Virus record (IMG/VR): IMGVR_UViG_3300050821_008607
Coordinates: 34,184-98,183 of that record
Length of the DNA stretch: 64,000 bases
Direction: 5' to 3' (one strand)
Origin: a virus
In this document: positions 22,632 through 55,398 of the stretch, piece after piece
Layout of the letters: every line of letters begins with the position of its first letter
How positions within the stretch are numbered: position 1 is the stretch's first letter
Position numbers and translations under genes: made by a program
Notes under the pieces: model-generated
Told to the model about the DNA's origin: nothing
The model's input: only the letters and a program-made list of their open reading frames with translations
Databases searched by the model: none

Positions 22632-24131
22632 TCAGGCGCAGTTCGCCAAAACTGCCATGGCAACGGGGGCCCTGTTGACCAGTGCGGAGACGGTCCGGAT
22701 CTCGAATTCTTTCCTCGGGCCACCACCAGCGGTGTTCGCGACGCGGCTGATGCCGTAGTCGAACTGGGCGGTGTCGCGCAGGGTGCGGCACTCCAGCACG
22801 CTGGAGATGTTGGCCTGCGGGAACGGAACCCTGTCGGTCCTCGCGACGATCGTGCCCGGGGGCAGGGAGACATGGACCTCGATCGGAACGGTCACGCCCC
22901 CCGCCGGGGCGTTGACGATCTCGCCGACCCGGCCACCGGCCGTGGTCGAGATACGGCCCGAGGCGTCGGTGGTGAGGTACGTGGTCGCGGAGTTCGACCC
23001 GAGGACGAGGTTCGCGATCTCCTGCGCCTGCTGGGCGTTCATCATCAGCGCGGTGGGGCTGCACTTGACGGCGTTCCACAGGGGCAGGAACACGTCGTTC
23101 TCGATCTCGTTGACGGTGCCGCCGGTCAGGGTCAGCGCGGCTCCGTCGAGGGAGTTGAAGATCGACGGGTTGGCTGTGCCGGTGCCGGGGGTGCCCCACT
23201 GGCCGGAGCCGTTGTAGTCGCCCGCCAGGGAGGCGAGGAACCCGTCGTAGTCGTTGGCGTTGGCCGACCCGTTGTCCGCCGCGGTGTTGATGGTCGGGAC
23301 CGTGCTGGCGGTGCCCTTCCACGACGTGGACAGGTCCGGAACGCCGTTGCCCGTCGGCAGCGCCTGGTTCGAGGAAATGGTCTTGGTGACCGTCACCGTG
23401 TTGGTGGTGGTGGTCGTGTAGTAGTACCAGGTCGACCCGTTCGCCGAGTAGAACCAGTCGTACGCCACGGCCCCGCGCACGGCGGCGACGGTCGCGGTGA
23501 CGGAGTTCGTGGACCCGGAGCCGAACGTGGACACCAGGCTGCTGGTGCCCTGGGAGTTCCCCGAGCCGTAGTAGTAGCCGGAGCCGGTGCGGGCGGCGAC
23601 GCCGACGTACAGGCTGACCGCACCGATGGTTCCGCCGGTGGCGTGCTGGGTGACGACCGGGGCGGCCGGGGCGGCGAGCGCGAAGCTCTGGGCGCCCATC
23701 AGCTTGCGGTCCTCGCCGATCAGCAGCTGGTTGAGGGTCTGGAACGTGGAGATGGCGTACGGGTCGCCGTAGCCCTTGGCGAGGTCGTAGGCGTCCTGGG
23801 TGACCAGGCCGGCGTAGCCGATGGGCTTGTAGCGGGCCTGGAAGTCCTGCTCCAGGAACTGGACCTCGTTGGCGGCGTAGTCGAAGCCCATGGAGGGATC
23901 CGGCTGCGAGTTGGTGAGGTTCATGATCGCGCGCCACACGGCGTACGGGTTGCCGTCCGGGCTCATCTTGCGGGCGACGATGTCGCGGAACGGGGTGACG
24001 ACGGGGATCAGCGAGACGAGCTCGGAGAGGTCGTAGCTGTAGATCCCGGTGGATTCCAGGATCCCGCTGGTCTGGGCCTTCATGATGGCGCCGAGGGTCT
24101 CCTCGGTCATGTCTGCGAGCGGTGCGCTCAA
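22632..24131 (-). CDS. Major capsid protein, HK97 fold, with inserted domain
   Basis: I place the start at the TTG at 24131 (AGGAGG 6 nt upstream), giving 499 aa; an ATG at 24149 would run into the terminator hairpin. The N-arm (LIPVVTPFRDIVARKMSPDG) and E-loop region precede a long insertion about residues 165-280 rich in Ser/Thr/Tyr/Gly (TGSGYYYGSGNSQGTSS, YDWFYSANGSTWYYY), which looks Ig-like. The P-domain returns with KCSPTALMMNAQQAQEIANL. It ends VAMAVLANCA. Scaffold and protease genes lie upstream. Confidence 0.85.
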   Translation of the reverse strand: MSAPLADMTEETLGAIMKAQTSGILESTGIYSYDLSELVSLIPVVTPFRDIVARKMSPDGNPYAVWRAIMNLTNSQPDPSMGFDYAANEVQFLEQDFQARYKPIGYAGLVTQDAYDLAKGYGDPYAISTFQTLNQLLIGEDRKLMGAQSFALAAPAAPVVTQHATGGTIGAVSLYVGVAARTGSGYYYGSGNSQGTSSLVSTFGSGSTNSVTATVAAVRGAVAYDWFYSANGSTWYYYTTTTTNTVTVTKTISSNQALPTGNGVPDLSTSWKGTASTVPTINTAADNGSANANDYDGFLASLAGDYNGSGQWGTPGTGTANPSIFNSLDGAALTLTGGTVNEIENDVFLPLWNAVKCSPTALMMNAQQAQEIANLVLGSNSATTYLTTDASGRISTTAGGRVGEIVNAPAGGVTVPIEVHVSLPPGTIVARTDRVPFPQANISSVLECRTLRDTAQFDYGISRVANTAGGGPRKEFEIRTVSALVNRAPVAMAVLANCA

Positions 24132-24151
24132 GGGATGCCTCCTGGGCATGC

Positions 24152-24209: not shown

Positions 24210-26063
24210 CTACTGGCGGGCGCCGCCCTGGTGGATCGCCTGGAGCGCGGCGATGGCGTCGGCCTGCATGTCCTGGGCGATGCGGTTCTGCTCGGTCGCA
24301 TTGGCGGCCTTGTACAGGCGGCCCTTCTGCTCCCGGGCCTTGACCACGTCGACCTGGGCGCCTGCGCCTCGGTCCATGCCGCGCAGGTCGCGCGGCGGGA
24401 CGGCTCCGTTGGTGAAGACACGCGGTTCGGCGGGCTGCTCCTCCAGCGCCCCGATGCGGCCCTTCAGCTCCTTCACGAGGTCCGCCAGCTCCAGGACCGC
24501 GTCCGCCTGCTTGGCGAGGACGGTGTTCTGGCTGGCGCTGTGCTCGGTGAAGGCGCTCTCGACCGCAGCCAGGAGGCTGCTCTTGAACACGTCCGTGAGA
24601 GTGGTGTCGGGGATGGACTTGGTGACTGCCTCGTCGTCCGTGGGGACGGCGTCGGCGGGGGTGCCGGCCTCGGCCGCAGGGGCGGGGGTGAGGTCGGTGG
24701 TCTCGGGGGTAGCCGGGGCGTCGGTGTCGGCGCCGTCCGTGTCGCTGCCGGTGTCGGAGCTGTCGTCGTCGGCGGATGCCCCGGAGACCATGGTGATCTT
24801 CTCGGGGTCGACGATGCCGACGAGCTTGCCGCTGGCGTTGAACACGGCGACCATCTCCGGCTTGTCGCCGTCGGCCTTCGCCACATCGGTGACGACCTGC
24901 CCGGCGACGGGCTTCGGGTCGGCCTGCTGGGCGCCCATGGCGGGCTCCTGGCCGGAGGCCGCAGTGGCGTCGGCGCTGGGGGTGGGCTCGGCCATGTCGG
25001 CCTCCTCGTTCGCGGTCTTGGCGACCGGGGCCCCGGCCTCCTCGGTGGTGGGGGCCTGCGGGAGGGACGCGAGAACCTTCTGCAGGGAGTCGACGGCGCC
25101 GCGGATCGCGGCCTCGTTGCCCGCGGACAGGACGCGCCCGGCCTTGCGGACGTGGCCGAGGGCCTCGATGGTGTCCAGCGAACTCGGATCCCAGTCGGCG
25201 AGGGCCTTGCCGACCATCTGCATGTCGTCGCAGCAGTCGGCCTCGGCCTGCTCGGAGACCGCGAACGGCGCGAGGACGCTGATGGCGTAGTCGAGGGCGC
25301 AGCACGCGTCCTGGAGGTCCCAGGCGTTCTCGGCGTCGCCCTCGTCCCCGGCCGCGGCCTCCATCAGTTCACGGTCGGCGAGCATGTCGACGGCGGCCTT
25401 GGCCCGCGCCAGGATCGACGTCCACTTGCGGGCGGTCGCGGCGTCGACGGCCTCCCAGGCCGGGGAGCCAGGGTCGGTGTCCATGCCGGGGGCGTCGCCG
25501 TCGGGCTCGGCAAGGGCGGTCATCGGGTCCAGGGCGTCGTCGTCCATGCTCGTCTCCTTCGTGACGTCGCCCTTCAGCGAGCCGTCGGCGTTCCAGGTGT
25601 CCGGGATCTCGGACTGGGCGCCGAGGGCCTTGGCTCGTGCGATGACGTGGCGTCGGATCGCGTCATGCTCGGCGCCGCCGCGGCCGACCGCGCGCACTGC
25701 GCGGTTGAGGTCTTCACGGTCGGCGATCGGGTAGCTCTCGTTGGCCATCGCGGCGCCCGACGCGGCCATGCGCTTGAGGTCGTCGGCGTCGTACTTCGCC
25801 TTGAGGACAGCAACCTCGTGGATCATCTTCGCGATCGCGCCCGGGCTGCCGGTCATCGTCACCGTCTCCTCCGGGATTGGCTCAGGATCAGCCTTGGCGA
25901 GCAGCTCGCGGACGAAGCCGGGGTCGAGGAGTCCGGCGCTGTCGTCGTGCTTCATGAGGAGGAAGCCGGGGACGCCGTTCGCGGCTTTTCCGACGAGGTC
26001 GACGCGGGGGATGTTGGCCTCTGTTGCCTCGGTCCAGTCGTCCTCGTCGAGGAGGTCGGTCAT
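24210..26063 (-). CDS. Scaffold-like protein with XkdF-associated region
   Basis: A 617-aa very acidic protein. Residues about 65-145 contain MIHEVAVLKAKYDADDLKRM and SYPIADREDLNRAVRAVGRG followed by HDAIRRHVIARAKALG, a module seen in actinophage protease/scaffold proteins. A middle helical region has a CC-type Cys motif (DACCALDYAI, ADCCDDM). Long disordered Ala/Asp/Thr stretches and a C-terminal coiled coil (about 540-617) suit a scaffold that is removed on maturation. ATGA overlap with the protease-like gene suggests coupled translation. Confidence 0.65.
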   Translation of the reverse strand: MTDLLDEDDWTEATEANIPRVDLVGKAANGVPGFLLMKHDDSAGLLDPGFVRELLAKADPEPIPEETVTMTGSPGAIAKMIHEVAVLKAKYDADDLKRMAASGAAMANESYPIADREDLNRAVRAVGRGGAEHDAIRRHVIARAKALGAQSEIPDTWNADGSLKGDVTKETSMDDDALDPMTALAEPDGDAPGMDTDPGSPAWEAVDAATARKWTSILARAKAAVDMLADRELMEAAAGDEGDAENAWDLQDACCALDYAISVLAPFAVSEQAEADCCDDMQMVGKALADWDPSSLDTIEALGHVRKAGRVLSAGNEAAIRGAVDSLQKVLASLPQAPTTEEAGAPVAKTANEEADMAEPTPSADATAASGQEPAMGAQQADPKPVAGQVVTDVAKADGDKPEMVAVFNASGKLVGIVDPEKITMVSGASADDDSSDTGSDTDGADTDAPATPETTDLTPAPAAEAGTPADAVPTDDEAVTKSIPDTTLTDVFKSSLLAAVESAFTEHSASQNTVLAKQADAVLELADLVKELKGRIGALEEQPAEPRVFTNGAVPPRDLRGMDRGAGAQVDVVKAREQKGRLYKAANATEQNRIAQDMQADAIAALQAIHQGGARQ

Positions 26064-26452: not shown

Positions 26453-29400
26453 CTATGCGCTCAGGACGGCACACCGACACCGTGGGTGCGCCGGTACGGA
26501 TCGGTCCCCCGAGGGGAATGAGGCGCCGAGCTGGATCGGCCCGGCCCCGGCGTTGGCGATACACCGCGGGCACGTTCGGCTGGACGGGTCCAGGGCCCAG
26601 CGGACTTGGGTGACGCCGAGCTGCTGGTAGCCGAACAGTGCGGCGAGGCCCGACGAGCGGGTGATCTCCGTGATGGCGACGGCCAGTGCCCGGTCGACGC
26701 TGCCCAGGGCACTGCGCAGGGTCCGGCCCAGGGCCAGGGCGGTTGCCCCGGCGATGAGACCCTTGGCCAACTCGCGGGCCAGGTCCCGGCGGCGCGTGTC
26801 GGCAATGCCCTGCGCAGTCTCGGGAACCTGGTCGAGGATCGGCGTCAGGCCCTCGTCGGCGCCCTGGTCGGTGATGGTCCGCTGGGCTCGGGCGGTGTCG
26901 CCGGGTGTCCAGCCGTTGCGCTCTGCCCGGTCGCCGGTGGCTGCGGCGTGGGCGGAGGTGAGGCCGACGAGATAGCCGTCGGTGTACAGCCCCGGCAAGG
27001 TGTCGACGAGCGGGGTGGTGAGGTCCAGGGTCTGGCTTCCGAGCCACGCCTCAGCGGCTGCGGTCAGTTCGCCCTGTTCGGGGCTGCTGGTCTCGTCGAG
27101 CTGGTGCTCGGCGAGGAACCGGCCGGCGACGTCCTGGGCTGCCGCGGCGGTGAGGACGCCACCGAGTGCCGCGGCGATCACTGCGGCCCAGTGGTTGGCG
27201 GCGTCCTCGTCGGTATCCCAGCCAGGCCACTGGTCGGCAGCCCCCTGGCCAGGGGCTTCACCTTTTCCCGCGCCGACCTTCTCCAGCACCTCGACGCCGA
27301 GGGCGGTGAGGACCTGGTCGAGGTCGGCAAGCAGCTCGGGGCGCACGGCCGGGTTCCCGGCCAGTTGCCCGGGGTGCATCCAGGCGATCGCTTCGATGCA
27401 GTCGCCGTCCGGGTCGTCCGGGTTGGTGACATCCCGGTCGCCGCGAACCGGCACCATGGCCTCGGAGTCGACCGTCCAGACGATGCCCTGGTAGACGCCG
27501 TCCGGACTGACCCATGTGCCGCTCTGGACGCCCGGGGGCGGGATGGACCCGGTCTCCTCCGACCATTCACGCCACGCGCCCATGAGCGGCGACTCGGCCC
27601 CTTCGAGGTGACCGCCGGGGAACTCGAAGGTTCCACCTGCGGGGTCCTCGGGGTCGAGGCAGCGCTGCAGCATCAGGACGCGGCCAGTGTCAGCAGCGCG
27701 CACTGCGAGGCCAGCGACACTGACCTCACCTGCTGCCTTGCGGACGGCGAGCCGGGCGCTCTGGTTGAGGCGCCGTCCGCGGATCGGGTCGATGGCGCGG
27801 AACTCGAAGGGCTCCCACTGGCCGGTGCGGCGCCGCTTCTTGGTGAACGACCGGAACGCGGCCAGCTCGCTCTTGGCCAGCTGCTCCCGGTCCTCCTGGT
27901 CGTCGTTCTCGTCGTCGTGCTGCCCCACGAGGTCGTAGGAGGTGATGCCCGTGGCGGTCGTGATCCCCGCCGTGGGGGCGCCGTCCTTCGCAACCTCGGT
28001 CGCGGGGGCTTCGGCGACGGGCTGCGGGGGTGGGGCGGTGGGCATCGCGTCGAGGCCGTAGATCTGCTCCGCGAGCGGGACGCCCTTCGCCGGCGGTTCC
28101 GGGGTGATGCCTTCCGCGCCGGTGAACACCGAATGTGGCAGCGGCGCGCCGGGTTCGGGGGCGCCGGTCTGGGTGTCGATCTCTCCCGCCACCGAGTACA
28201 GCGACGACAGTGGCACTGGGCCGGCGTGGGAGGTGAAGATGAATCGGGGCACCGGCTGGCCGTTCGGCTCCTGGAGGCCGTAGCGGCTCTCCCGGATCTC
28301 GGACGCGCCGACGACACCGAGTTCGATGTAGATCTTGTCTGCCTGGGCCTGCTGCAGCCGGTCGGCCTGCTCCTCGCCGAGGTCGAAGGCGAAGTCGAGC
28401 GGCAGGCCGAGATCGTCCTGGAGGAACGCGGACAGGATCGTCTGGACGTGGCGCAGCAGCGGCAGGTCGCCGACGCGGTGCTGGACGTCGGCCTGCGACT
28501 CACCGCTGCTCTTGTTGACGGACTCGGTGAATCCGAGGTCGGCCGGTACGACGTGGAATGCCGCCGCGGTCTTCCGCATCAGGAACAGGCTGAAATGATC
28601 CTGGAAGTCTTTCTCGTTGGACCATTCGATCTTGCCGCCGCCGGGCATCCACTTGATCTGGGCCTTGGCGGCCTGGTCGCCCAGCATCCAGGCGTCCCAG
28701 TAGGTCTGGAATGCCTCGATCTGGTCGGGGGTCCAGGTCTCGGGTGCGGACGCGAACGCGGAGGGGATGTTGCCCTCGGTGAAGCGCTGCAGGAAGTACG
28801 CCTGGAACCTGAGGTCGGTGTTGGCGTTGAGGAGGATCGTCTCCAGCGGCGCCAGCCCGTAGGGGCTGTTGGCGCGCTTGCGGAACGGCTGGTAGATCAG
28901 GTCGTCGCGGGTCAGCTGGTCCCACGGCAGGCCGTTGACGTACTGCACGAACGCCGGGGCCGGCGTCTCGGGGCTGTTGCCCCAGTAGTCGAGCAGTGGC
29001 GCGATCATGGTGCCGTCTACGACGCGCAGGCCGATGGCGTCACCGCGGCGGTTCCGGAGCCGGTACAGGGTTCCGGCGTCGTAGGCGAGGGTGTCGTACA
29101 GGAACGAGCCGAGCCAGGCGCTGAAGGACTGCTGGCCGTCGGGCTTGGCGAGGGCTTTCATGCCGATCTGGATGGCGTCGGCGAGGTCGCCGCCGTTCCC
29201 GTCCTTGGCGACCAGGGACCAGTCGAGGGAGCGGATCGAGTCGATGCGGTGCCAGATGCACATCTGGGCGACGTCGTAGGACTCGATCAGGCCGCGCAGG
29301 GTGTCGAAGCTGACGCGCTCGTAGGTCCGCGGCCTGGTGGCCACGTTGTAGTTGGTGACGTAGTTCTCGGTGCGCGGGGTGCGCGAGTACCCGTCGTAGG

Positions 29401-29524
29401 GCCCGAGTGGTGTGCCGGGGCTGAACGGCGACGCCGGGGTCATCTGGGATGCTGCCTGGCCTGCCGCGATGGCTGCGGGCACGTTCGTTCCGTAGGTCTT
29501 GACCAGGCGGCGGGGGTCGGGCAC
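26453..29524 (-). CDS. Portal protein fused to a Nudix domain and a MuF-like domain
   Basis: One 1023-aa frame with three parts. Residues 1-470 are a portal: YDVAQMCIWHRIDSIRSLDW near 83-102, SPYGLAPLETILLNANTDLR near 220-239 and SSGESQADVQHRVGDLPLLR near 339-358. Residues 595-740 are a Nudix hydrolase with the box G638-x5-E644-x7-R652-E653-x2-E656-E657-x-G659. The C-terminal part (about 755-1023) ends with TCPRC then HPRCRCAVLS, the MuF/head-morphogenesis signature. The portal forms the DNA gate. A cleavable or tolerated Nudix insert is unusual; its substrate is unknown. Confidence 0.85.
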   Translation of the reverse strand: MPDPRRLVKTYGTNVPAAIAAGQAASQMTPASPFSPGTPLGPYDGYSRTPRTENYVTNYNVATRPRTYERVSFDTLRGLIESYDVAQMCIWHRIDSIRSLDWSLVAKDGNGGDLADAIQIGMKALAKPDGQQSFSAWLGSFLYDTLAYDAGTLYRLRNRRGDAIGLRVVDGTMIAPLLDYWGNSPETPAPAFVQYVNGLPWDQLTRDDLIYQPFRKRANSPYGLAPLETILLNANTDLRFQAYFLQRFTEGNIPSAFASAPETWTPDQIEAFQTYWDAWMLGDQAAKAQIKWMPGGGKIEWSNEKDFQDHFSLFLMRKTAAAFHVVPADLGFTESVNKSSGESQADVQHRVGDLPLLRHVQTILSAFLQDDLGLPLDFAFDLGEEQADRLQQAQADKIYIELGVVGASEIRESRYGLQEPNGQPVPRFIFTSHAGPVPLSSLYSVAGEIDTQTGAPEPGAPLPHSVFTGAEGITPEPPAKGVPLAEQIYGLDAMPTAPPPQPVAEAPATEVAKDGAPTAGITTATGITSYDLVGQHDDENDDQEDREQLAKSELAAFRSFTKKRRRTGQWEPFEFRAIDPIRGRRLNQSARLAVRKAAGEVSVAGLAVRAADTGRVLMLQRCLDPEDPAGGTFEFPGGHLEGAESPLMGAWREWSEETGSIPPPGVQSGTWVSPDGVYQGIVWTVDSEAMVPVRGDRDVTNPDDPDGDCIEAIAWMHPGQLAGNPAVRPELLADLDQVLTALGVEVLEKVGAGKGEAPGQGAADQWPGWDTDEDAANHWAAVIAAALGGVLTAAAAQDVAGRFLAEHQLDETSSPEQGELTAAAEAWLGSQTLDLTTPLVDTLPGLYTDGYLVGLTSAHAAATGDRAERNGWTPGDTARAQRTITDQGADEGLTPILDQVPETAQGIADTRRRDLARELAKGLIAGATALALGRTLRSALGSVDRALAVAITEITRSSGLAALFGYQQLGVTQVRWALDPSSRTCPRCIANAGAGPIQLGASFPSGDRSVPAHPRCRCAVLSA

Positions 29525-29538
29525 CGGGACCCCCTTGT

Positions 29539-30966
29539 TCAGCGTTGGGCGCGGTAGGCGGCGTTGCGGGCCCGCTGGCGGGCGGCGGCCGGATCCTCTT
29601 GCTGCTCGGGGGCAGGCGGCGGCGCGGCAGTCGGTGCCAGGTCGGGAAGTTCCGCGTCAGCTCCGCCTTGCGTCGCGGCCTCGGCCTGACGGCGCATGTA
29701 GCTGATCCAGCTCTGGGCGCTGAAGTCGTCGGTCAGCTCGGTCACCGCCCACACGAGAGCGTCGAGCCGGTCGGGGCTGGTGCCGTCCTGTGGCGTCCAC
29801 GTCGTCATCTGGTCTTCGAGCTTCGGCATCGCACCGACGTGATGGACCCGGTGCTGCTCGTAGAGAGCGGCGACGGGCTCGGCGCGCTGGACCTTGCCCC
29901 GGGATGCGCTGATGACCTTGACGGGAACGTTCTTGTCGACCTGGCGGATCGTGGACTCGACCATGGCGCCGCCGTAGTTCACCTCGGCAACGATCCGGTC
30001 CGCGGAGAACTCCCGGTAGGCGCCGACGGCCCGGGATGCCCAGCCGTGTGGCGACAGGGAGCAGGAGCGGTCCGCGAGGATGTACAGCTCGCCGTCCACG
30101 CCGAGGCCGGCGACGACGATGCCCTGCTCGTCATTGTTGGGCCCGGACCCGCCGGAGGGGTCGACGGCGACGACGATGCGCTGCATCTCCGGCGGGTTGG
30201 TGATGCGGTCTTGGTCGAGGCCGGCGATGTTCCACAGGGCGCCTTCGACGTCGTCGAGGAGTTCGCCAAGGAGTTCCTGGCGGCCGATGCGGGTGCCCTC
30301 GTAGGTGGCGAGGACCTGCGCCCGGAAGCTGGGGGCGAGGTTGCCGAGGTTGTCGTAGGTCGAGCCGCGGGTGACTGCTGTCGACGGCCGGGCGAGGATG
30401 ACCCGGGTCAGGGCGTTGGGCTTCGGCGTGGTGGTGACCACGCACCGGGGCGTCTCGCCAAGCCGTAGGCCCAGCATGAGGTTGTTCCAGGCCGTGTCGA
30501 GGATGTCGCCCTTGGGGGCGTCGGTCCACGCTGCGGCCTCGTCGGCCCAGGCCCAGTGGTGCTGGGGCCCGCGGAGCTGGGAGGGGACCTCGGCGGAGAA
30601 CGCTGTGGCGATGGACCCGTTCGGCCAGGTCAGGCGTCGCTTCGTGGGCTCGTAGATGGGCGTGAAGTCTTTGGCCGAGCAGGCGATGATGCCGGACTCG
30701 CCTTCGATCATGACGTCGCGGACATCGGCCGGGGTGCGGCCGATCAGCGCCCCGCGGGATCCGGGCATGTCGCGGGCCTGCTCGATGGAGAATTCGGCTG
30801 CTGACCGTGTCTTGCCTGCGCCGCGTCCGGCGATGAAGGCCCAGACGAGCCAGTCGTCGCCCGCGGGCGGCAGTTGCTCGGGGCGGGCGATCTTCCGCCA
30901 TGTCGGGGGCCGGGCGATCTCGAAGTCCCGGGCCGCATATTCGAGCCAGTCGGCGGTGGCGGTCAC
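29539..30966 (-). CDS. Terminase large subunit
   Basis: A 475-aa packaging motor. Walker A GRGAGKT is at residues 47-53, Walker B is near HWAWADEAAAW at about 136-146, and the coupling motif TTTPKP is near 187. The RNase H-like nuclease domain has the first acid in VVAVDPSGGSGP near 266-277, EVNYGGAM in the middle, and the last acid at SPDRLDALVWAV near 409-420. It lies directly upstream of the portal and downstream of the small subunit. Confidence 0.95.
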   Translation of the reverse strand: MTATADWLEYAARDFEIARPPTWRKIARPEQLPPAGDDWLVWAFIAGRGAGKTRSAAEFSIEQARDMPGSRGALIGRTPADVRDVMIEGESGIIACSAKDFTPIYEPTKRRLTWPNGSIATAFSAEVPSQLRGPQHHWAWADEAAAWTDAPKGDILDTAWNNLMLGLRLGETPRCVVTTTPKPNALTRVILARPSTAVTRGSTYDNLGNLAPSFRAQVLATYEGTRIGRQELLGELLDDVEGALWNIAGLDQDRITNPPEMQRIVVAVDPSGGSGPNNDEQGIVVAGLGVDGELYILADRSCSLSPHGWASRAVGAYREFSADRIVAEVNYGGAMVESTIRQVDKNVPVKVISASRGKVQRAEPVAALYEQHRVHHVGAMPKLEDQMTTWTPQDGTSPDRLDALVWAVTELTDDFSAQSWISYMRRQAEAATQGGADAELPDLAPTAAPPPAPEQQEDPAAARQRARNAAYRAQR

Positions 30967-42172: not shown

Positions 42173-44140
42173 TCAGGCTGCTTCTGCGTGGACGGCGAGG
42201 AGGAACACCTTCGAGGCGTCGCGGCGCCCGTTGTCGACGACCCAGCCGCGCGCCTTCCACGCCTGGATCGGGTCGGAGATGGAGGTGCGCTGATTCAGGC
42301 CGGAGCCAGCGACCATGCCAAGGAGTTCGAGGATCGTCGCGCCCTGCGCACCCCGCTGATCCAGGGCCCGCCACAGCTGCTGGTGGTTCGCGGGGACCTC
42401 GGAGCCGTCGGGAAAGCACGGCACGGACTTGAGCAGCCGCGGCTTACCGCCACCGGGCGGGGTGGCCTGTGGACCGCCACTGCCCTCGCGGGCATTGAGA
42501 CGGGCGGTCGTCACGATCTGCCCGTCGTCGATCCAGAACGCGCGCGACTCGGCCGGCTGCGTGTAGCGGCGCGAGGAGATCATGAGCTTGCCGGGGGCGT
42601 CGAGCTGGTCCAGCCGCCATCCGGCCCCGAGCGCGCCGGCACCGAGGATCAGGTTGATTGTCACGGTCTCGTTGACGCCCAGGCCGATGCGGTTCTCGTA
42701 CTGCTGGCGCGCATCGGTGCCCTTGCCACCGAACGCCCGCTCCGACGGCGACTGCGTGGCGGCGATGATGCGGATGCCCATGGCGCGCGCGACCTGGTTG
42801 AGGGTGATCAGCCGGTCGGCGACCTTCGGGGCCTGCCGGACCAGTTCGGCCAGCTCGTCTATGACCAGGAGCATCGCTGGGCCGTGGCCCCACTCGGGCG
42901 AGTCGGGGTCGGCATCGGGGTTGCCGGGGATCCACTTGCGGACCGGCTCGCCGTCCGGGCCGCGGAGGGTGGCCAGGTGCTCGCCGCGGATCTCCATCTC
43001 CCGCACGACGAACTCGACGATCGCCTCGGCGCCCTTGGCGGAGTCGGCGATGCCCTCCATGACGTCCTGCCACGGCCCGAGTTCCAGGGCGCCGGGCTTC
43101 ATGTCGATGCCGAGGATCCTGGCGTCGGGGCAGCCGGCGAGGTTGGCGATGATGACGTTCTCGACGCCGGACTTGCCGCGGTCGGTGGAGCCGGCGATCA
43201 GGACGTGGCCGTCCATGAGGTCGAGGAGGAGCGGGGAGCCGTCGGCGAGGCGGCCGATGGTCATGGGCTGCTTGACGGAGGTGATGGACGGGCCGGGCCA
43301 CGGGATGGTGTCGGCGAGGGGGTCGTTGGTCTGCATCCGCATGATCAGCTGGTTGCCCTGCGGGCCCTGCGCGAGGGTGAGCCGGCCGGGGAGCCCGAGG
43401 TTCGCGCGCAGCTGCTGCAGCTTGGCTGTGACCGCGGCCGGGCTCGTGGTCTTGCCGGGCGGCAGCGTCACCAGCGCCACCCAGCCGTTCGCGTTCGACT
43501 GGAACGCGTCGATCGCCAGCGGTGTCGCGCCGAGCGCTGCCAGCCCGCGGTAGATCGCGGTCTCCTCGACGCTGCCACCGGTGATGCCAGGGGCCTGCGC
43601 TGCCAGCCCCATGCCAGCCGGGAGGGTGCCAGCCTTGGCAGCCTGGACGTGGAGTGCCAGCCGCTCGTGCCGGTGCCGGGTCAGCCAGGGGATGTAGATG
43701 CCATAGCTGGCGGCGGTGGCAATGGCACTGACGACCAGGCTGGCAGCCGACGGCCCGGCCATGGCGTTGATGCCGACGTCGGCGAGGACCGCGGTGAGGC
43801 CGGCTCCGGCGGAGGCGAGGTGGGTGTGCTTGTGCTTGAGAGCGAGACCGGCGACGGCGCCGCTGACGGCGGTCGCGGCGCCGTAGGCGAGGCCGGTTCC
43901 GATGCCGACGCCGGACATGTTCTCGGCCCAGGCGAGGCTGGTCAGGGCGGCGTTCCCGGCGAGGGGTGCGACCTCGTAGCGGCGCCGGGAGCACCAGGTG
44001 CCGAGGGTGTTGATGCGGCTCACGACTGCTCCGGGCGGGTTGGAGATGACGTGACGTGACGTGACGTGAGGGTTCATTTGGGCTGGTCGGAGCAGTTCGG
44101 GGAGCAGGGGTGCTGACGTCACGTCACTCGATCCCTTCAT
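42173..44140 (-). CDS. FtsK/SpoIIIE-type DNA translocase, TraB-like
   Basis: A 655-aa protein. Hydrophobic segments at about 65-150 would anchor it in the membrane. The motor domain has Walker A GSTDRGKS at 317-324, Walker B LLVIDE at 424-429 and IIAATQSPS near 475. A C-terminal winged helix-like end (SISDPIQAWKARGWVVDNGR) could read DNA. This is the layout of the single-protein conjugation pumps of Streptomyces plasmids and integrative elements. ATG at 44140 overlaps the upstream stop (ATGA); a GTG at 44023 with GGAG 5 nt away is an alternative that would leave the TGACG repeats untranslated. Confidence 0.8.
   Translation of the reverse strand: MKGSSDVTSAPLLPELLRPAQMNPHVTSRHVISNPPGAVVSRINTLGTWCSRRRYEVAPLAGNAALTSLAWAENMSGVGIGTGLAYGAATAVSGAVAGLALKHKHTHLASAGAGLTAVLADVGINAMAGPSAASLVVSAIATAASYGIYIPWLTRHRHERLALHVQAAKAGTLPAGMGLAAQAPGITGGSVEETAIYRGLAALGATPLAIDAFQSNANGWVALVTLPPGKTTSPAAVTAKLQQLRANLGLPGRLTLAQGPQGNQLIMRMQTNDPLADTIPWPGPSITSVKQPMTIGRLADGSPLLLDLMDGHVLIAGSTDRGKSGVENVIIANLAGCPDARILGIDMKPGALELGPWQDVMEGIADSAKGAEAIVEFVVREMEIRGEHLATLRGPDGEPVRKWIPGNPDADPDSPEWGHGPAMLLVIDELAELVRQAPKVADRLITLNQVARAMGIRIIAATQSPSERAFGGKGTDARQQYENRIGLGVNETVTINLILGAGALGAGWRLDQLDAPGKLMISSRRYTQPAESRAFWIDDGQIVTTARLNAREGSGGPQATPPGGGKPRLLKSVPCFPDGSEVPANHQQLWRALDQRGAQGATILELLGMVAGSGLNQRTSISDPIQAWKARGWVVDNGRRDASKVFLLAVHAEAA
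44047..44126. repeat. TGACG repeat array at the start of the translocase gene
   Basis: Four perfect tandem TGACG units (44047-44066) followed by TGAGG, and 43 bp away the palindrome TGACGTCA (44114-44121) plus CGTCA. The array falls at the 5' end of the translocase gene. It may be a regulator operator or a recognition site used in transfer. Confidence 0.6.
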
Positions 44141-45144
44141 GACGCCGCTCTGAGCGGCTTGGCAAGATCGGCGTGCCCGGCCTTGATCGCGGCGGTACGG
44201 AGCTGCTGGGCGCGGGAGCGGGAGACGCCGAGGTGGTCGGCGAGGGCCTGGTCCGACGGGGACTTGCCGAGGGTCTTCTCCAGGGCGCGGAAGGCCGCGG
44301 CGACCTCGTCGAGATCACGGGCTTCGCCACCCGGCGCGGGAGTCTCGGCGTGGTCTGCCACGGTGGCGCCCGGACTGCCAGGCTCCGGACTGGCGGCGCC
44401 CTGCGAGGGCCTGGCAGCCGGGGGACTGGCAGGGGCTGGCACTGGCACGCCAGGGCTGGCAGGAGGGGCTGCCAGGGGCGGGGTGGCAGTCGGGCTGCCA
44501 GGGGCGGCAGGACTGGCGCTGGCAGCCGCGCCCCGCGCGCTGCCAGTCGGCCGACTGGCAGCGCGGCGCTGGCTGGCAGCGAGGCGCTCTGGCAGTGGCA
44601 TCTCCATGACGTGGCGTCGGACGATGTCCCAGCTGCCAGTCCAGTCGAAGACGAACCGCAGCGGGTGCAGGCGCGGGCGCACGGCGATCCCGGCGCGCCG
44701 CTCCGCAGCCTTGCGGGCCTCGGAGATCAACGCCTCGAAGACCACGACGGCCGCCAGCGGCATGAGGGCGGCGACGATCCGGCCCCAGTGGTCGCTCAGA
44801 TGGACGTAGTTGATCAGGCAGGACAGCATCGTGAAGACGACGATCAGGAGCCGCCACACCAGAGCCGACCGGCCGTGGCTGGCGGCGCGCATGACGACGA
44901 GGGTGAGGCCGGCGGGGGCGCCGTCGTAGGTGACCGGGACGAGCCAGGCCGTGGCCCAGCTGAGCTGCATGTGCTGCATCGCGAAGGTGTGGAGGCCGAT
45001 GAAGCTGACGGTCCAGCCGGCAAAGGCGACGGTGGCGACGATGACGAAGCCCAGGGTGCCGAGGCTGCTGTCGCGGATCCACAGCGCGACCTCGCGCAGC
45101 CGCTCGATCTTGCCTCGGCTGGTCGGCGCGTCATTCTCGGTCAC
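44137..45144 (-). CDS. DUF2637 membrane protein with C-terminal HTH, SpdB-like
   Basis: A 335-aa protein. Four membrane segments in the first 140 residues contain family motifs (GWTVSFIGLHTFAMQHMQLS, AWLVPVTYDGAPAGLTLVVM, LIVVFTMLSCLINYVHLSDH, FEALISEARKAAERRAGI). A long Pro/Ala/Ser linker follows, then DQALADHLGVSRSRAQQLRT, a helix-turn-helix. DUF2637 proteins accompany traB-type genes on actinobacterial plasmids. The gene is coupled to the translocase by ATGA. Confidence 0.8.
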   Translation of the reverse strand: MTENDAPTSRGKIERLREVALWIRDSSLGTLGFVIVATVAFAGWTVSFIGLHTFAMQHMQLSWATAWLVPVTYDGAPAGLTLVVMRAASHGRSALVWRLLIVVFTMLSCLINYVHLSDHWGRIVAALMPLAAVVVFEALISEARKAAERRAGIAVRPRLHPLRFVFDWTGSWDIVRRHVMEMPLPERLAASQRRAASRPTGSARGAAASASPAAPGSPTATPPLAAPPASPGVPVPAPASPPAARPSQGAASPEPGSPGATVADHAETPAPGGEARDLDEVAAAFRALEKTLGKSPSDQALADHLGVSRSRAQQLRTAAIKAGHADLAKPLRAAS

Positions 45145-53329: not shown

Positions 53330-54478
53330 ATGACCACCACGACCGGCTTGACCCTGGACGACCTGTTCCCACCGGAGGCGCTGGCCGCCGCGCTGGAGGC
53401 GCAGCACGTCACCCGTAAGCAGCACCCCGACCTGCCGCTGCACATCCTCACCTACACCCGGGAGTGCCAGTACGGGCACATCTGGACGCCCGTCACCATG
53501 CAGTGCCGCGGCCTGATAGCGGACGCCGGGGGCCGGATCGTCGCGTTCCCGTTCCCGAAGATCTTCGTGACGGCGATGCACGGCGTCCACGACTTCGCCC
53601 CGCCGCTGCCGGTCGACGAGCCGTTCGAGATCTTCGAGAAGGCCGACGGCAGCCTGATCATCGTGTTCCACTACGACGGCCACTGGCACGCCGCCTCCAA
53701 GGGCAGCTTCATCAGCGAGCAGGCCGACTGGGCGCAGCAGTGGATCGACGCCGCCGACCTCAGCCGGCTGGACCCTCGGCTCACCTACCTCGCCGAGGCG
53801 ATCTACCCGGCGAACCGGATCGTGTGCGACTACGGGCCCCGCGAGGACCTCGTGCTCCTGGCCGCGTACCGGCCCGCTGACGGGTCGGAGGAGCTGCTGT
53901 CGACGGTTGCCCCGCACTGGGCTCCGATCGGGTCGGTGATTCGCTCCTGGGGCCTGGACGACGACGTCAGCAAGCTGGAGGCCCTGGCCGCGGCGAGCGT
54001 CACGCTCGGCGGTGACGAGGTCGGCGGGACGGAGGAGGAGGGCTACGTCATCCGCTTCGCGTCCGGCCAGCGCGCCAAGGTCAAGCTGTCCGCCTACCTG
54101 ACGCTGCACAAGCTGTTCACCGGCACGAACGAGCGCACGATCTGGGAGGTGCTCGCCTCCGGCCAGGACCCGGCCGTGCTCTTCGACACCGTCCCGGACG
54201 AGTTCGCCGACTGGGCCCGCGGCATTGCCGACCGACTGCGCGCCGAGCACGGCCGACTGGTCCGCGAGGCTGCCAGCGCCTACGCCGACATCGTCGACAT
54301 CCAGCTGGGCACTCTCGACTTCACGCGCAAGGACTTCGCGATCGCCGCCGCCAAGTCCGACTGCCGCTCCGCACTGTTCCTGCTCCTCGACAAGCGCGAC
54401 GACGCCGTCAGGGCCTGGGCGTGGAAGCAGATCAAGCCCCGCGGCGACAAGCCCTTCAAGAACGACGAGGACAACTGA
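53330..54478 (+). CDS. RNA ligase, T4 Rnl1-like
   Basis: A 382-aa protein. The nucleotidyl-transfer motif I is EKADGSL with Lys 104 as the adenylated residue, preceded by QCRGLI near 58-63. Motif IIIa-like LTYLAEAIYPANRIV, motif IV EEGYVIRF and motif V VKLSAYLTLHK follow in order. The C-terminal domain is helical, as in Rnl1. It should seal 3'-OH and 5'-phosphate RNA ends using ATP. The kinase-phosphatase that prepares such ends is the next gene, 2 nt away. Confidence 0.85.
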   Translation: MTTTTGLTLDDLFPPEALAAALEAQHVTRKQHPDLPLHILTYTRECQYGHIWTPVTMQCRGLIADAGGRIVAFPFPKIFVTAMHGVHDFAPPLPVDEPFEIFEKADGSLIIVFHYDGHWHAASKGSFISEQADWAQQWIDAADLSRLDPRLTYLAEAIYPANRIVCDYGPREDLVLLAAYRPADGSEELLSTVAPHWAPIGSVIRSWGLDDDVSKLEALAAASVTLGGDEVGGTEEEGYVIRFASGQRAKVKLSAYLTLHKLFTGTNERTIWEVLASGQDPAVLFDTVPDEFADWARGIADRLRAEHGRLVREAASAYADIVDIQLGTLDFTRKDFAIAAAKSDCRSALFLLLDKRDDAVRAWAWKQIKPRGDKPFKNDEDN

Positions 54479-54480
54479 CC

Positions 54481-55398
54481 ATGCCCACGATCCACTTCAC
54501 GACCGGCCTGCCCGCCAGCGGCAAGACCAGCTGCGCCACCCGGCTCGTCCGCGACGCCAAGGGCAGCCTGCGCCGCATCAACCTCGACGACATCCGCGCC
54601 ATGCTCGACTCCGCCTACGGGCAGTCCGTCTGGACCCACCGCCACGAGGCGACCGCCCAGAAGATCCAGAAGGAGGCACTCCGGGCCGCGCTGTCCGACG
54701 GCTTCGATGTGATCGTCGACAACACGCACCTGACGCCACGAATGCCGGGCCGGCTGAAGTCGGTGCTCTCCGAGTTCGACGACCTCGCCTTCGAGGTCCA
54801 CGACTTCACCGGCGAGGACGTCGAGGACTGCATCTTCCGCGACGGCGGTCGTGCGAAGCCCGTCGGCGAGGACGTCATCCGCAAGCTCTGGCAGCGGCAC
54901 CAGTCCGCGACCAAGGGCGGTTGGCGGCTGACCGCGGAGTGGCTGGCGGACCGGTTCGTGCCGACGCTCTACGTGGCGGACGCCTCGCTCCCGGCCGCTG
55001 TCCTGGTGGACATTGATGGGACGCTCGCGCTCAAGGGCGACCGTGGCGTGTACGACTTCGAGCACTGCGGCCGGGACCACCTCAACAAGCCCGTCGCCCA
55101 TGCGGTCGGGCTGCTCCGCAAGGCCGGGGATCAGATCATCCTGCTGTCCGGCCGCGGCAGCGAGTACCGGATGCAGACCCTCGCGTGGCTTGTCGAACAC
55201 GAGGTGTGGTTCGACGAACTGCACATGCGCCCCGAGAAGGACACCCGCCGCGACGACGTCGTGAAGGCCGAGCTGTTCGACGCCCATGTCCGCAACCGGT
55301 TCAACGTCCGTATGAGCCTCGACGACCGGGACCGCGTGGTCTCGCTCTGGCGCCGGATGGGCCTGCCGTGCTGGCAGGTCGCACCCGGCAACTTCTGA
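54481..55398 (+). CDS. Polynucleotide 5'-kinase / 3'-phosphatase, T4 Pnkp-like
   Basis: A 305-aa two-domain enzyme. Kinase: P-loop GLPASGKT at 9-16, the same position as in T4 Pnkp, with NLDDIRAML and VIVDNTHLTPRMPGRLKSV. Phosphatase: VLVDIDGTLAL (DxDGT), ILLSGRGSEYRMQT and RMSLDDRDRVVSLWRRMG. It phosphorylates 5'-OH ends and removes 3'-phosphates, creating substrates for the ligase. Together they form an end-healing and sealing pair used by T4 against anticodon nucleases. Confidence 0.9.
   Translation: MPTIHFTTGLPASGKTSCATRLVRDAKGSLRRINLDDIRAMLDSAYGQSVWTHRHEATAQKIQKEALRAALSDGFDVIVDNTHLTPRMPGRLKSVLSEFDDLAFEVHDFTGEDVEDCIFRDGGRAKPVGEDVIRKLWQRHQSATKGGWRLTAEWLADRFVPTLYVADASLPAAVLVDIDGTLALKGDRGVYDFEHCGRDHLNKPVAHAVGLLRKAGDQIILLSGRGSEYRMQTLAWLVEHEVWFDELHMRPEKDTRRDDVVKAELFDAHVRNRFNVRMSLDDRDRVVSLWRRMGLPCWQVAPGNF

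Follow-up and report, generated by a model that had tools for sequence, protein, structure and literature searches.

An enzyme slot inside a phage portal-MuF chain, with predicted prohead-protease sites around its cassettes

What is a Nudix hydrolase doing in the middle of the portal protein of a phage that infects soil bacteria? The question arises from a single open reading frame (ORF) in the IMG/VR virus record IMGVR_UViG_3300050821_008607 (98,183 bases), of which we analyzed positions 34184-98183, a stretch of 64,000 nucleotides with a G+C content of about 69% (hereafter, the window). The ORF joins a portal core, a Nudix domain and a MuF-like end. We propose, with somewhat better than even confidence, that it encodes a head polyprotein whose processing in the prohead would release a Nudix enzyme for packaging and injection, most likely against nucleotide alarm molecules. 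The chain is laid out as follows, with residues numbered along the protein.

26453..29524, minus strand: whole portal-Nudix-MuF frame, 1023 amino acids; a single ORF with a GTG start and its sole stop at the end; Pfam and PHROG domains
28289..29269, minus strand: portal core (Phage_portal), residues 86-412; PF04860 E 5e-16, phrog_2662 E 2e-66
27341..27706, minus strand: Nudix domain, residues 607-728; PF00293 E 1e-12, phrog_1198 (MutT/NUDIX) E 5e-10; predicted fold that of Nudix hydrolases
27548..27613, minus strand: complete Nudix box GHLEGAESPLMGAWREWSEETG, residues 638-659; read from sequence
26453..27235, minus strand: MuF-like helical region and Cys/His end, residues 764-1023; PF04233 at 915-1020, phrog_115, BFVD model match

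The original prediction had placed all three parts, with a complete box at residues 638-659, in one polypeptide; Pfam and PHROGs agree on the parts, all on the minus strand, and the box is seen in the translated sequence as claimed. The portal scores 59.1 bits against a cut-off of 39.1, and its gene comes after that of the large terminase subunit (TerL). The GX5EX7REUXEEXGU box and the fold put the second domain in the Nudix superfamily (48.6 bits against a cut-off of 21.1). The Phage_Mu_F match in the window chain is slightly under its cut-off (27.9 against 29.6 bits, E 4e-6); the MuF domains of relatives pass it, at 33.0-41.8 bits. The window chain also matches phrog_115 (minor head protein) at E 1e-11, its C-terminal CPRC...HPRCRC is present, and its BFVD matches are phage head morphogenesis proteins, as expected of a MuF/SPP1 gp7-like domain. 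A structure model of residues 441-1023 is confident for Nudix and MuF, and its confidence score (predicted local distance difference test, pLDDT) falls below 50 at 498-539 and 747-763; judged from the model, these stretches on either side of the Nudix are probably flexible linkers.

A sequencing error joining two frames, or a chimera, is excluded by recurrence: the same in-frame fusion occurs in many separate contigs, in six actinobacterial genome contigs and in two Arthrobacter phages. Searching viral contigs with the window chain gave 43 relatives out of 44 pattern matches, and portal and Nudix profile searches contributed the best 80 of 236, of 158 and of 312 matches. Genome contigs gave 37 pattern matches and six relatives, from Streptomyces (four), Kitasatospora and a Catenulispora metagenome-assembled genome; all six carry the Nudix domain, and we regard them as prophages. 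Among named phages, Arthrobacter Sonali and Mufasa8 come closest.

Nor have relatives lost the catalytic glutamates, a second way in which the prediction could have failed. In 81/81 complete Nudix domains the box has the same residues at positions G1, E7, R15, E16, E19 and E20; its last Gly varies (G in 66 of 81). Nine full-length relatives considered as candidates for loss of catalysis (L006, L007, L015-L018, L021-L023) differ at this last Gly only, and the candidates were rejected. Nudix codons are under purifying selection, with a ratio of nonsynonymous to synonymous substitution rates (Ka/Ks) of 0.07-0.32 in five chosen close pairs. Judged by these sequences, the domain is intact and probably active.

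The original prediction had called an intervening Nudix unusual. It is instead the commonest state of this portal family, and such fusions are already published (Iyer et al. 2022, PMC9503650, in its available text). Among 105 readable distinct portals, the slot between portal and MuF holds a Nudix domain in 86, a 2H phosphoesterase in 13, both in two and neither in four. Portals were counted as distinct (n=112) when the last 150 amino acids of the portal differed, and seven were set aside as unreadable: L035, L036, L141, L179 and L191 end before the slot, L043 retains 67 portal residues, and L047, the distant Brevundimonas phage Strzyga, has a 305-amino-acid tail matching neither enzyme. Five were reassigned by hand, L163 to 2H (a domain that runs off the end of its contig and was read by eye with no profile) and L033, L147, L149 and L180 to no enzyme. 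Because one query (A3) selects Nudix carriers, we also counted from portal-only queries, where 78 readable portals of 82 divide into 60 with Nudix, 13 with 2H, one with both and four with neither. In the two chains with both enzymes (L084, L142) the order is portal-Nudix-2H-MuF.

Closely related portals carry different enzymes. Five pairs of one 2H and one Nudix chain share 91.5% (L186/L080), 90.7% (L159/L103), 90.2% (L181/L096), 81% (L156/L100) and 80% (L164/L089) portal identity. Between L186 and L080, identity is high up to the helical arm that precedes the slot, drops to ~18-46% across the slot, returns to 85-90% at the start of MuF and is lower thereafter; the other pairs have weaker identity beyond the slot than this one. 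L186 and L080 lie on contigs of 105 kb and 132 kb, so the swap is not an artifact of contig ends. On a portal tree of the 'quick' kind with 96 rows, in which L104 and L107 form long branches, 2H is present in just one member of each of nine independent starred-branch pairs, and no phylogenetic clustering of 2H was found. Since the 15 carriers need 14 changes on this tree, no fewer than under shuffled labels (mean 14.19, range 10-15 in 200 shuffles), the distribution of 2H reflects repeated exchange rather than descent.

The replacement was first noticed in L031, where PF13563 matches at E 8e-6, slightly under its cut-off. Two HxT motifs (H32/T34 and H117/T119), invariant in 14/14 domains, identify the enzyme as 2H, and its model (pLDDT 90.9) is closest to drCPDase (Z 15.8 over 146 residues, root mean square deviation 2.9) and LigT (Z 14.5), with further matches to rotavirus VP3 (Z 11.7), Acb1 (10.4) and a poxvirus cGAMP phosphodiesterase (10.4). 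These matches are by fold only; a sequence profile found no solved relative at E 0.1. Separate 2H genes also occur near the portal in Arthrobacter phage Salgado (gp18; L250) and Gordonia phage GMA6 (orf12-13; L251). Annotations of Salgado-type gp18 vary among RNA ligase, aldolase and capsid protease, and in GMA6 an ADP-ribosyltransferase gene follows directly after the 2H gene. Beyond MuF, two chains, one with Nudix and one with 2H, carry an ADP-ribosyltransferase domain (L192 455-4588, E 1e-20; L240 348-4517, E 4e-18), and L069 has a weak kinase-like match in the same place.

How might an enzyme made as part of a portal be released? Reading the linkers, we first spotted VAK or VRK at each domain border, and a motif [VLI]-x-K-[ADES] brackets the enzyme cassettes between portal and MuF. 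In 45 relatives the stricter form [VLI]-x-K-[ADE] is almost confined to window residues 513 (37 relatives), 551-552 (19), 596 (44) and 749 (39). The corresponding window sites, with a slash at the predicted cut, and the two segments between the first three are:

27986..27988, minus strand: predicted site 1, VAK513/D; motif position in 37 of 45 relatives, its function proposed from that pattern
27926..27985, minus strand: segment DGAPTAGITTATGITSYDLV, residues 514-533, resembling the N-terminal arm of major capsid proteins (MCPs); found by an MCP-arm profile
27872..27874, minus strand: predicted site 2, LAK551/S; at 551-552 in 19 of 45 relatives counted with [ADE] after K, S being uncounted there
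27737..27871, minus strand: conserved helical arm, residues 552-596 (ELAAFRxF..WEPFEFR..LN); alignment and model
27737..27739, minus strand: predicted site 3, VRK596/A, directly before the Nudix; 44 of 45 relatives
27278..27280, minus strand: predicted site 4, LEK749/V, directly after the Nudix; [VLI]xK[ADE] in 39 of 45 relatives, whereas the window matches in relaxed form only

With S allowed, the motif lies upstream of 69 of 70 Nudix domains (2.1 expected), downstream of 54 (5.8 expected), on both sides of 53 (0.2 expected) and inside none, the expected counts being taken from shuffled tails. Around 13 2H domains it occurs upstream in eight (0.4 expected) and downstream in all 13 (1.1 expected). 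The two chains with both enzymes have sites before, between and after them, and the four enzyme-free chains retain at least one site. No site was seen between the ADP-ribosyltransferase domain and MuF in L192 or L240. Lysine makes up 0.23% of Nudix interiors in 81 relatives, against 2.6% in portal core plus TerL; this would fit a lysine-directed protease, and other causes are possible.

A candidate for that protease is encoded directly beside the chain, near two genes whose products carry the same motif.

29539..30966, minus strand: large terminase subunit, adjoining the portal gene; PF03237, PF17289
26060..26449, minus strand: XkdF-type prohead serine protease, 129 amino acids, candidate processing enzyme; PF14550 Peptidase_S78_2 E 9e-12, phrog_3017
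24210..26063, minus strand: scaffold-like protein, 617 amino acids, 12 motif copies; scaffold role suggested by position
22632..24149, minus strand: probable MCP, 505 amino acids, with IMK24/A near its N-terminus; position and homology to MCPs of Sonali/Mufasa8-type clusters

Tape measure and tail genes lie downstream, which makes this the head operon of a tailed phage; the probable MCP also matches phrog_13692, which has no named function. The scaffold-like protein holds 12 motifs where 2.05 are expected (about 5-fold), a number reached by 0 of 1000 shuffles, and 88 distinct scaffold homologues hold 786 against 152 expected. Nearly all MCPs inspected have IxKA at the N-terminus, followed by TTGI..TGI.SYDL. 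TerL, taken for comparison, has eight motifs against 23.5 expected. In an unbiased ranking of 4097 gapped triplets, V.KA came second in 90 scaffold homologues, at about 3.6 copies per protein; in the linkers V.KE ranked 6th and V.KA 13th, behind conserved single positions such as WRDF. From these sequences we read [VLI]-x-K-[ADES] as the predicted cleavage site of the adjacent XkdF-type protease. A short motif common to the scaffold, the MCP N-terminus and the linkers of the cargo would place the chain among prohead-protease substrates, the window's downstream site being a relaxed match only.

The resemblance to capsid proteins extends beyond the motif. In 60 of 112 distinct portals, the MCP-arm profile picks up the portal linker that follows site 1 (E < 1e-3, best 1e-8), so that the linker appears to carry a capsid-arm mimic; the few remaining matches are truncated portal fusions or weak. 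These E-values are based on 8195 ORFs from overlapping related loci, a redundant set, which is why distinct portals are quoted.

Several observations weigh against the polyprotein proposal. The weakest point is the window's own downstream site, where V follows K in LEK/V and the strict motif fails; strict matches are also missing downstream of 16 of 70 Nudix cassettes and upstream of five of 13 2H cassettes. Three matches fall inside the 2H domain across its 13 copies, and the portal core of the window chain has two of its own (K107, K338) at places where no cut is expected. Nudix domains of the same clade in the phages Gilgamesh and Pam4 have no bracketing motif. The protease too scores high for the motif, in part through VIKAGDW and LVKSGKV, which belong to its conserved fold; autoprocessing was therefore dropped as support. 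Finally, neither sequence nor fold picks a substrate, RppH, Dcp2, Ap4A, MutT and NadM folds being nearly tied.

The imperfect downstream sites would suit a Nudix that is never cut off and works, or simply sits, tethered to the portal ring. We consider this distinctly unlikely, given bracketing far above shuffled expectation and strongest on the upstream side, the repetition of the motif in the scaffold and its presence at the MCP N-terminus, and low-confidence linkers on both sides of the domain. Least probable of the alternatives is a slot domain without catalysis, acting as a spacer or an aid to folding: the four distinct portals without any enzyme do indicate that slot content is dispensable for assembly, but the invariant catalytic residues of both enzymes and the purifying selection on Nudix codons speak against it. 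Release of the Nudix by the maturation protease, one of two fates that the original prediction had offered, is the reading best supported by the bracketing.

Two further rivals concern the substrate. Nearest folds to the Nudix model are RenU (Z 16.1), BdRppH (14.1), Dcp2 (13.5) and Ap4A hydrolase (13.4). An attempt to read the substrate from sequence failed, 153 PDB sequences of mixed activities matching at E < 0.01, and no NCBIfam Nudix model reached its cut-off in six scanned proteins, the NudE model giving a weak match in L142 only. The main rival, to which we give perhaps a one-in-four chance in plain terms, is RNA-end processing, in which an injected Nudix strips 5' caps or pyrophosphate (as RppH, Dcp2 or NAD-decapping enzymes do) and 2H deals with 2',3'-cyclic ends, either to shut off host messages or to repair tRNA. 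BdRppH and Dcp2 are among the nearest folds and 2H is nearest to the LigT/CPDase RNA phosphodiesterases, but RenU scores higher, Ap4A, MutT and NadM folds are nearly tied, and anti-signal 2H domains have the same fold as well. Also in favor of this rival is an RNA repair pair in the phage itself, a T4-type RNA ligase gene (PF09511) and, after it, a gene for an AAA kinase plus PNKP phosphatase (window 53330-55398, plus strand); against it, this pair lies ~24 kb off, apparently as a separate module. MutT-like housecleaning of the nucleotide pool, removing oxidized dNTPs near packaged or entering DNA, is improbable. MutT-like proteins do lead the PDB sequence matches, and the weak NCBIfam matches are of the same type, but none attains its family cut-off, and exchange for 2H, an enzyme with no action on NTPs, renders a constant need for housekeeping unlikely.

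The course of events that we favor is a polyprotein cut in the prohead, proposed because scaffold, capsid N-terminus and cargo linkers share one motif beside a head protease, the pattern of T4 gp21. Portal, arm, enzyme cassette and MuF would be made as one chain, and the enzyme would thereby be incorporated into the prohead along with the portal. Portals usually have 12 copies, which would give 12 enzyme copies in the prohead. The neighboring XkdF-type protease would then cut after lysine at the linker sites, yielding from the window chain a normal-sized portal (1-513, 56 kDa), two short pieces (514-551 and 552-596), the Nudix (597-749, 16 kDa) and MuF (750-1023, 28 kDa). We infer that the freed Nudix would remain in the head, enter the cell alongside the DNA and hydrolyze an NDP-X compound, the likeliest target being a nucleotide alarm molecule used by host immunity, whether derived from NAD/ADP-ribose or of another kind. 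Such a target is favored because relatives swap in or add 2H, a fold of known signal-degrading viral enzymes, and because a counter-immunity role has been proposed in print (PMC9503650, in the available text).

The chain is also a recurrent site of insertion. Inserts break the Nudix coding sequence at two places, and the profile continues without a gap beyond them, in L154 (5395-5934), L155, L158 and L194, and in L209 (2198-3028) and L029 (4701-4939). The L209 insert contains a 374-amino-acid frame resembling, by eye, a LAGLIDADG homing endonuclease, and that of L154 a frame on the opposite strand; an Rfam scan of the interrupted genes for introns gave no match. Portals are split by in-frame inserts in L067, L082, L084, L101 and L127, and intein splicing domains (PF14890) lie close to the MuF end in L029 (4939-7617) and L085 (1892-6340); inteins repeatedly invade the portal-MuF chain. 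L009 (2467-4902) lacks MuF's helical part, its Cys/His box coming almost directly after the Nudix. A second Nudix domain, outside the window, ends a 664-amino-acid ORF of the same record (G000:C1 31307-31654, plus strand; ORF at L049 15552-17543); it matches Pfam at E 7e-18 and the portal-clade profile at E 1e-4, and falls outside the portal clade. Within the window, an FtsK/SpoIIIE ATPase gene stands beside a DUF2637 gene (42173-45144, minus strand), a pair that we take to be reminiscent of actinomycete plasmid-transfer modules.

How much of this is already known? Iyer et al. (2022, PMC9503650), in the text available, describe Nudix domains fused to MuF, portal or prohead protease, and propose that Nudix and 2H domains fused to MuF or portal are injected as counter-defense against NAD/ADPr-based immunity. 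A Nudix in a head protein, proposed to be packaged and injected, is thus common to that work and ours, whereas the exchange of Nudix and 2H in one slot, the bracketing protease sites and the three-part chain are undescribed in the same text. It assigns most phage Nudix domains to NudE/NadM clades, a placement unconfirmed for the window Nudix. Polyvalent proteins with MuF fusions (Iyer et al. 2017, PMC5512222) likewise hold several effector domains in one head-borne polypeptide, including 2H fused to MuF or portal; the window chain differs in including the portal and in cassettes that apparently have cut-out sites.

Among named phages, gene 3 of Sonali and Mufasa8 has a portal, a Nudix with intact box and MuF in ~1000 amino acids, in the same gene order. 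Both phages also have IxKA in the MCP, as a capsid site IKK/A at residue 18, and motif-rich scaffolds; one extra gene lies between portal and protease in Sonali and none in Mufasa8. These genes differ in being 39-46% identical, with other linkers, and their annotations go no further than portal, portal-MuF fusion or MutT/NUDIX. Streptomyces phage Gilgamesh gp52 (an S78 protease fusion) and Pseudanabaena phage Pam4 gp13 (a MuF fusion) have Nudix domains 47-53% identical, with another fusion partner and no K motif around the Nudix. A functional likeness is T4, where, in the available part of a published account (PMC9026906), gp21 cleaves behind L/I-x-E, a specificity first recognized at a Glu-Ala bond, and Alt and internal proteins are packed in the head, trimmed by gp21 and ejected into the host. 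Enzymes packed in the prohead, trimmed at a short motif and ejected are what we propose here from sequence. By the same account T4 cargo comes from separate genes with N-terminal targeting peptides, whereas window cargo lies inside the portal chain and its motif has Lys, not Glu.

Our search of open-licence literature turned up no paper describing a slot in which Nudix and 2H replace each other, enzymes bracketed by protease motifs or a cleavage rule for XkdF, and no match for Nudix with capsid maturation protease, for Sonali or for Nudix in virion proteomics. Fusions of Nudix with portal, MuF or protease, and of 2H with portal or MuF, are known; the exchangeable slot and the bracketing motif are new within the literature searched. 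Ordinary tryptic proteomics cannot reveal a cut behind lysine, and this could be why none had been noticed before.

More broadly, and with confidence a little short of even, the portal-MuF gene of this actinobacterial phage group may be an interchangeable cargo bay: enzyme cassettes (Nudix, 2H or both) would be swapped within constant flanks, together with lysine-directed XkdF-type cut sites, docking to the maturation machinery would be the task of the capsid-arm mimic in the linker, and the enzymes, once freed, would form a pre-loaded, rapidly evolving anti-signalling arsenal, with cassette exchange tracking the nucleotide alarm used by local hosts. If true, this would supply the first cleavage rule for XkdF-type proteases in the literature searched, and a ready list of paired phages differing only in the cassette would make the enzyme targets directly testable. 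It would also provide a genetic handle on virion-borne counter-defense, since one cassette could be swapped or killed with replication genes untouched. For the phages themselves, it would mean that immunity-blocking enzymes are loaded as part of the portal, at a defined copy number per virion, and released by the maturation protease.

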